Below, piece by piece: positions 23,118 to 23,653 of a stretch of 64,000 nucleotides of DNA. Position 1 is the stretch's first letter. Every line of letters begins with the position of its first letter. The notes beneath the pieces are model-generated. The model was not told where the DNA came from, ran no database searches, and worked only from the letters and a program-made list of their open reading frames with translations. This DNA comes from Halodesulfurarchaeum formicicum (GTDB lineage: Archaea > Halobacteriota > Halobacteria > Halobacteriales > Halobacteriaceae), in contig NZ_CP016804.1 in assembly GCF_001886955.1 (NCBI RefSeq), positions 1,798,001-1,862,000 of the forward strand, read 5' to 3'. The position numbers and the translations under genes were made by a program.

Positions 23118-23172
23118 AACGGACTACGAGGAAGGTAACGCTCAAGGCGGAGCCACGGGTACGCACGGGCAG

Positions 23173-23247
23173 GGCCCTTAGCTCAGTCTGGTTAGAGCGC
23201 GCGGCTCATAACCGCGTCGTCAGTGGTTCAAATCCGCTAGGGCCCAT
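23173..23247 (+). tRNA. tRNA-Met (anticodon CAT; Ile2 possible)
   Basis: The acceptor stem pairs GGGCCCT with AGGGCCC; the D arm is GCTCAGTCTGGTTAGAGC; the anticodon stem CGCGG/CCGCG closes loop CTCATAA with anticodon CAT; the T loop is TTCAAAT. The discriminator base is A. CAT may mean elongator Met or, if the C is modified to agmatidine, Ile2 reading AUA; sequence alone does not decide. It is not an initiator, which would carry GGG/CCC in the anticodon stem. The 3' end seeds the repeat array that follows. Confidence 0.92.
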
Positions 23248-23522
23248 TTCTTCGAGCGAAGCGAGATGAAATGGGCGACGGATTTGAATCAGGGAACGAG
23301 CAAAGCGAAGTGACCGAGGTTCGAATCCGCCAGGGCCCATTTCTTCGAGCGAAGCGAGATGAAATGGGCGGCGGATTCGAGCCCTGGAAGACGAGCGAGG
23401 GACGAGCGACGTCTTCCTCAGGTTCAAATCCGCTAGGGCCCATTGCTCCGGAGGGCGCTCGAACCGCCAGCAGCGTGTTCGAGCGCGGAGAGGGCCAGCG
23501 GATTTGCAACCCAGGAAACCGA
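23225..23522 (+). repeat. array of direct and inverted copies of the tRNA-Met 3' end
   Basis: The T arm plus acceptor 3' strand of the tRNA (23225-23247) is repeated directly at 23317-23339 and 23420-23442, each ending AGGGCCCA. After the first two copies comes CCCATTTC, a loop with gagcgaagcgag, GAAATGGG, and an inverted T-arm copy (cggatttgaa near 23275, cggattcgag near 23382), so each copy can fold into a long hairpin. A decayed inverted copy (cagcggatttg) lies near 23503-23513, and GCGCTCGAAC/GTTCGAGCGC arms lie at 23455-23486. No protein gene is supported here or up to 23653. Confidence 0.85.
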
Positions 23523-23653
23523 GTCCAACGCACACACCGTGTTTGATCGTGGAGCGCCCGATTGGGGTCCAACGGGCACTATGATACGATTCGCGGAGTG
23601 CTACCAATCACGTGGGGCGCCAACTCATACTCGGTGAACCCCTACCATATAGT

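Follow-up and report, generated by a model that had tools for sequence, protein, structure and literature searches.

Layout of the array at tRNA-Met(CAT)

The window, the 64,000-nucleotide stretch of DNA analysed here, comes from a haloarchaeal genome of 2.09 Mb on a single contig. Positions 23172-23523 hold a tRNA-Met(CAT) gene followed by an array of short units built of four kinds of part: D, the 20 nt that end the tRNA, from its T-loop to base 73; I, which repeats D imperfectly in inverted orientation; and A and B, which are hairpin modules. The order outward from the tRNA is D A1 I1 B1 D2 A2 I2 B2 D3 A3 I3, closed by a truncated B:

23172..23246, forward strand: tRNA-Met(CAT) gene (ARAGORN; Rfam RF00005)
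23227-23246, forward strand: first D, the last 20 nt of tRNA-Met(CAT), within the tRNA
23247..23279, forward strand: A1 and the acceptor part of the inverse, TTTC / CGAGCGAAGCGAG core / GAAATGGGC (sequence, inverted repeat, core match)
23280..23288, forward strand: I1, T-loop inverse, GGATTTGAA (sequence, inverted repeat)
23289..23319, forward strand: B1 module, TCAGGGAACGAGCAAAGCGAAGTGACCGAGG (sequence; this B class recurs at other tRNAs and in other genera)
23320..23339, forward strand: D2, second direct copy, TTCGAATCCGCCAGGGCCCA (pattern match)
23340..23372, forward strand: A2, near-identical to A1, and the acceptor part of the inverse (direct repeat; core at 23346-23358)
23373..23381, forward strand: I2, T-loop inverse, GGATTCGAG (sequence, inverted repeat)
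23382..23422, forward strand: B2 module, CCCTGGAAGACGAGCG...GTCTTCCTCAGG, with self-complementary arms (sequence; class common to other tRNAs)
23423..23442, forward strand: D3, third direct copy, exact (pattern match)
23443..23499, forward strand: A3, a longer and different A module (sequence, inverted repeat)
23500..~23523, forward strand: I3, GGATTTGCA, weakened (23500-23508), and truncated B, CCCAGGAAACCGAG, which close the array on its distal side

The three direct copies of the tRNA-Met(CAT) 3' end described in an earlier note are confirmed at 23227, 23320 and 23423, with none expected in shuffled sequence. D2 has one mismatch to the R-degenerate search pattern and D3 none, and the only other D match in the window is the end of a tRNA-Ile, with 3 mismatches. 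Start-to-start spacings are 93 and 103 nt; the second agrees with the earlier reading, and the first had been put one base too short, at 92. Inverses do follow the first two copies, as stated earlier (23280-23288 and 23373-23381), but a weaker one at 23500-23508 had been overlooked, so that all three D copies precede an inverse. The direct-inverse-direct chain is real and, as the note had argued, unlike a single integrase footprint.

Cores of sequence GAGCGAAGCGAG lie at 23254 and 23347, where 0.03 would be expected in the window, and the full form of the truncated terminal B, CCCAGGAAACCGAG, stands at tRNA-Ser(tga) and tRNA-Pro(tgg). Folded as RNA, the array reaches -189.6 kcal/mol (z = -10.6), which none of 100 shuffles equalled. 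An Rfam scan of the array in the window returned nothing above chance except the tRNA, and RtT was not found. The array is also crossed by a 133-amino-acid antisense open reading frame (window 23206-23607, minus strand, ending in MGPSGFEPLTTRL), which is probably repeat-derived and not a gene; such array-crossing frames may end up annotated as hypothetical proteins.

Arrays behind the tRNA genes of the genome

The last 26 nt of each tRNA were sought in the 500 nt on either side of its gene, with shuffle controls. Direct copies of the gene's own 3' end, scoring 17-25 of 26, were found downstream of 22 of the 42 tRNA genes, that is, the Rfam tRNAs of this genome, among which a spurious 'tRNA-Ser(cga)' is not counted. 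Shuffles scored at most 11 and upstream flanks at most 12, bar this one spurious call, and upstream copies are essentially absent. The sole upstream exception is the ARAGORN 'tRNA-Ser(cga)', itself built of array sequence. ARAGORN reads this 'tRNA' from array sequence after another tRNA at two flanks, one of them that of tRNA-Leu(gag); arrays can produce spurious tRNA annotations.

The D-A-I-B plan is seen in the flanks of tRNAs for about 12 amino acids, and a search of the genome for the D-I pattern gave 11 matches, spread over several tRNA genes, against none for the reversed control. Each locus has one to five units, in which D measures 20 nt and is mostly identical to the tRNA 3' end at 19-20 positions. 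Spacers within units are only ~70-140 nt, and the cassettes, about 80-160 bp long, are gene-free. The edges of D are sharp: across 68 copies, identity to the tRNA is 0.88-1.0 over bases 54-73 and 0.26 at base 51, and the two Gs in between hardly vary among tRNAs. Modules of both types, A and B, reappear behind different tRNAs. A second repeated element, CCCACTTTTTCCGAGGGGCTGC..GCAGCCCCTCGCAAAAACTTGGGGAAAAAGACCGCTAGCGGCTG, often behind TGCGAGGTCGAACGCAGTGAGACCTCG, is found at the ends of or inside arrays after tRNA-Gly and tRNA-Leu. A tail of this type was looked for at the SRP RNA and RNase P RNA genes and none was found; a general tail of stable RNAs was therefore rejected.

Inverses, core motif and predicted fold

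Each I matches its own D. At T-loop base 57 the pair is A-T in 101 cases, G-C in 44 and mismatched in 8 (G-T 2, A-C 6), and in its acceptor part I is closer to the tRNA to which it belongs than to the others (p=1e-10, the effect being modest). I is hence a tracker of its own tRNA, not a generic T-loop.

The tips of A and B are built alike and read C-GA-NC-(loop)-GN-GA-G on the strand of the tRNA. Matches to the core CGA[N]C-N3-G[N]GAG number 100 distinct sites downstream in the sense orientation, 31 antisense and 12 upstream; in the 100, the middle pair is A-T in 38, G-C in 37 and C-G in 12, and it covaries strongly while the flanking GA/GA stays fixed. Among 148 paired sites of the broader motif Y-GA-NN-loop-NN-GA-R, loops of three dominate, 79 have GNA, and GNRA tetraloops are rare. 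Single mismatches in the longer stems are G.T in 48 cases and A.C in 60. Selection on an RNA fold is expected to leave more G.U than A.C, so that long stems lacking such an excess favour a hairpin at the DNA level over one of RNA. GNA triloops with C-G closure, as in d(GCGAAGC), form unusually stable DNA minihairpins, and GNA triloops occur in RNA as well. PMC5430850 lists solved structures of GCGAAGC as DNA.

The sense strand folds better than the antisense strand for both hairpin types with RNA parameters, and for I-B-D only with DNA parameters; of 97 I-B-D hairpins, 80 are more stable in the sense orientation (p about 1e-13). As the advantage appears under RNA and partly under DNA parameters, strand preference alone decides for neither. 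A K-turn or L7Ae site was weighed for the core and set aside, as the G.A pairs would be without the 3-nt bulge of that motif. An analogy to B-box or insulator function at TFIIIC sites was likewise considered and set aside, no evidence for it having been found.

Differences between species of the same genus

Turnover was read from a comparison of this genome with one species of the same genus. At tRNA-Glu(ctc) the sister species has one unit more, and the same flank (TGCGAGACACGAACG...) lies directly behind the tRNA here; at tRNA-Arg(ccg) an array is present here and absent from the sister species, the flank beyond the array being common to both. Whole-unit differences between the two species cut exactly at D. 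In 15 matched unit pairs, identity is 95% for D, 91% for A and 83% for B, which is lowest because B is at times swapped whole while A, I and D remain; at Ala(ggc), Ser(tga) and Val(cac), B has been exchanged with A kept and D unchanged. In another genome, from the same family, several 111-bp units follow one another in tandem with almost no difference in sequence.

Where the first and last D of an array are unequal, the last is the poorer copy in 14 of 17 cases (p=0.013), a small test that is partly biased because the last D stands at the border by definition. This decay looks as if cassettes enter beside the tRNA. At tRNA-Arg(tct), D copies retain T-stem bases (CCACCGTGCCCG) that are still present in the tRNA of the sister species, the tRNA here having changed; D copies can keep an older state of their tRNA.

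Islands, integrases and transposases

At two loci the array is separated from its tRNA. For tRNA-Arg(tcg), 54.8 kb (1166559-1221318), bounded by the 13-bp repeats CCTGCAACGCCCA and carrying a tyrosine integrase at their far end, lie between the gene and an array that in the sister species is directly behind the tRNA. The array of tRNA-Lys(ctt) is ~34 kb away (about 899249-933654), and here too the far end carries a tyrosine integrase. Both intervals are probable integrated islands between a tRNA and its own array, the reading being less certain for tRNA-Lys(ctt) because the tRNA flank is common to both species.

D, without the A-I-B body, serves as an attachment site for incoming elements. Integrases use D yet enter at the tRNA, so the extra D copies gave no shield, and a role as decoy attachment sites protecting the tRNA was rejected because both islands entered at the tRNA itself (n=2). 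Set against the 22 arrays, integrase genes number only 4-5 in the genome; two of these lie at the islands, and the other arrays have no adjacent integrase. The Y1 (HUH) transposase PF01797 is absent from seven genomes, all array-bearing, and a Y1/RAYT transposase as required mover was rejected on this ground.

Distribution

The pattern GTTCRAATCC-N25..55-GGATTYGA(A) was used for a survey with one genome per species; it needs an intact T-loop pair and so undercounts. It matched 21 of 26 genomes of the family, and 106 of 116 genomes (44 of 46 genera) of the class Halobacteria, with no matches for the reversed control in either set. Only three of ~240 genomes of other Halobacteriota had any match. 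Array-bearing genera include Halorhabdus, Halorubrum, Natronococcus, Halovivax, Halobellus, Natronorubrum, Halorussus and Natrinema, and arrays from distant genera agree with those here in plan and in B classes. The earlier note had proposed a search behind every tRNA and in other haloarchaea, allowing that the array might be confined to one tRNA family or to this strain; it is instead general across tRNA families and present in nearly all Halobacteria.

Viral contigs (IMG/VR) gave 103 matching stretches, and a core or cassette of the haloarchaeal type was found in none of the ~80 sequences examined. Phage and plasmid records held no similar sequence, a plasmid search matching tRNA sequence only; carriage by viruses or plasmids was rejected because no haloarchaeal-type match appeared in those records.

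In a sample of bacterial tRNAs, 43 further D copies from many phyla start near base 57/58; the sample was chosen by the D-I pattern and is biased by it. The G.A core is rare in it (6 sites, about 0.7 expected), and in diverse bacteria a terminator hairpin lies between D and an inverse. D with an inverse, resembling the tRNA-linked repeats of Escherichia coli, stands behind tRNAs of many bacterial phyla and of other archaea, with D starting near base 57/58 and not at 52-54; examples outside the class are tRNA-Pro of Nitrospira, tRNA-Tyr of Thermoplasmata (104-bp units) and tRNA-Ser of Omnitrophota.

Nature and turnover of the cassettes

Considering the observed D boundaries, tRNA-specific inverses, covarying sense-strand cores, unit differences with B swaps and class-wide spread, we think it somewhat probable that the arrays are tRNA-linked repeats made of D-bounded A-I-B-D DNA cassettes that fold at the DNA level. 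Each cassette would sit 3' of a tRNA gene and end in a copy of the last 20 nt of that tRNA; because it ends in D, gain or loss of a whole cassette would keep the tRNA intact. It may fold as single-stranded DNA, with a C(GNA)G triloop and G.A pairs in tandem. Addition of cassettes would take place mainly beside the tRNA, so that older D copies move outward, and gain, loss and module exchange could proceed by recombination at the 20-nt D and the T-loop 9-mer (TTCRAATCC/GGATTYGAA), probably without any array-encoded enzyme. The cassettes are more likely to be selfish passengers than to serve the tRNA gene. No mobility, circles or enzyme were seen, and these dynamics derive wholly from the comparison of species.

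The main competing account is that of an RNA tail, read through from the tRNA promoter, in which each internal D would act as a tRNA-like 3'-processing signal that frees small RNAs. Such a role has been suggested for the repeat resembling D in E. coli RrB, an RNA whose 3' end was mapped beside that repeat with RNase E suggested (PMC8144298), and E. coli rttR is annotated as a non-coding RNA. The core folds on the tRNA-sense strand and sense I-B-D hairpins are the more stable (80/97), a preference that is set relative to the tRNA, presumably irrespective of how replication runs, and that RNA would explain easily. Against this, G.U is not in excess of A.C in the stems or at T-loop base 57, so that the pairing statistics lend no support to the maintained tail listed as one possible origin in the earlier note; the loops are GNA triloops and not GNRA tetraloops, many A modules open with a T-run that should terminate transcription, the sister species differ freely in unit number, and the SRP RNA and RNase P RNA genes have no such tail. 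We regard an RNA tail as rather unlikely.

Still less probable is that tyrosine integrases of mobile elements, with the tRNA 3' end as attB, move the cassettes as mini-elements or scars, even though the 3' ends of tRNAs are the preferred targets of archaeal integrases, whose att sites can be very short (PMC8371274), and two islands here lie between a tRNA and its array. The 4-5 integrase genes do not adjoin the remaining arrays, the islands entered at the tRNA and not at a downstream D copy, the IMG/VR matches examined lack a haloarchaeal-type cassette and phage and plasmid records any similar sequence. Inverses and covarying cores are not predicted by such movement, and plain repeated integration, also suggested earlier, leaves the inverses unexplained. 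Fold-back template switching, in which a stable mini-hairpin primes copying back over the tRNA 3' end and the inverses are functionless by-products, would produce the alternation of direct and inverse copies with a hairpin at each turn, and would suit the terminator hairpin that separates D from an inverse in diverse bacteria. It should leave variable ends, however, whereas the T-loop boundary is where D and I stop behind almost every tRNA, and in bacteria too; random template switching, the remaining origin offered before, does not predict boundaries so sharp. Fixed G.A mismatches between covarying pairs are not an outcome of templated copying, and B modules recur at unrelated tRNAs, which makes fold-back a very improbable source.

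If the DNA-level cassette reading is true, the arrays constitute a class of tRNA-anchored cassette elements that is undescribed in the open-access literature searched. The arrays also account for the truncated tRNA hits and for the spurious tRNA calls and antisense open reading frames that recur beside haloarchaeal tRNA genes.

Comparison with known systems

Several repeat systems share part of this architecture. BIME/REPIN arrays have alternating orientation, strand-specific hairpins, two linker types and no genes, as here, but their repeat is a genome-wide REP moved by RAYT (Y1 HUH), whereas here it is the local tRNA end. Integron attC arrays have strand-specific imperfect hairpins and exact cassette-sized differences; the haloarchaeal arrays differ in having no ORF cargo, no adjacent integrase and a separate site for each tRNA, and the likeness is one of resemblance only. 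The attL/attR sites of tRNA-targeting integrases are likewise 13-20 bp repeats of tRNA 3' ends, with one repeat per insertion and neither inverse copies nor 100-bp cassettes. PATEs and small mobile repeats of Haloquadratum are gene-less, palindromic and haloarchaeal, and are not described as tied to tRNA ends (PMC3119063).

The closest counterparts are the tRNA-linked repeats (TLRs) of E. coli, 22 units at ten loci with no known function, defined by a 3' 18-19 bp identical to the upstream tRNA or rRNA (PMC8144298). They have been known since 1978, including the 178-bp tyrT repeat or rtT (Egan and Landy 1978; Rudd 1999; PMC8144298), and share the defining feature of the arrays, contrary to the earlier view that no named element has this form. 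E. coli K-12 has 19-nt D copies at tyrV, argQ and the lys operon, with bodies containing GGGCGAGCGAAGCGAGTC in lysW, lysY and lysQ, GAGACGAAGTCGAG in lysT and CGAACGTCAGTGAG in argQ; the start of D is inverted (GGGGAAGGAT) at tyrV, and a T-arm inverse, GATTCGAACCT, is found at lysQ. Like the haloarchaeal arrays, TLRs lie directly 3' of a stable-RNA gene with one to five units per locus, and each unit ends in a copy of the last 18-19 nt of the tRNA and contains an inverse of the start of D. The E. coli D starts at ATCC, whereas the haloarchaeal one takes in the complete T-loop; arrays follow about half of the tRNAs in haloarchaea (two species checked), against ten loci in E. coli; and the haloarchaeal arrays alone separate D from I by a structured A module that has inverse pairing of its own, and encode no CCA.

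At lysW, lysY and lysQ the TLRs carry a 12-nt core identical to the haloarchaeal GAGCGAAGCGAG, with no longer similarity beyond it. Homology of the bodies would accordingly be limited to this core motif, which could be convergent. A single cross-domain family of single-stranded DNA hairpins, using the tRNA 3' end as a rebuildable site, moved in trans in the manner of attC by a host recombinase and richest in haloarchaea, is a doubtful extension. No description of haloarchaeal tRNA-linked repeats was found in the open-access literature, and the TLR kind is wider than its description there. From their sequence and plan, the haloarchaeal arrays look like members of this kind in a class-wide archaeal form. 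Now that this plan, with its inverses and a shared core, is seen behind tRNA genes in almost all haloarchaeal genomes, a puzzle confined to E. coli is open to comparison.
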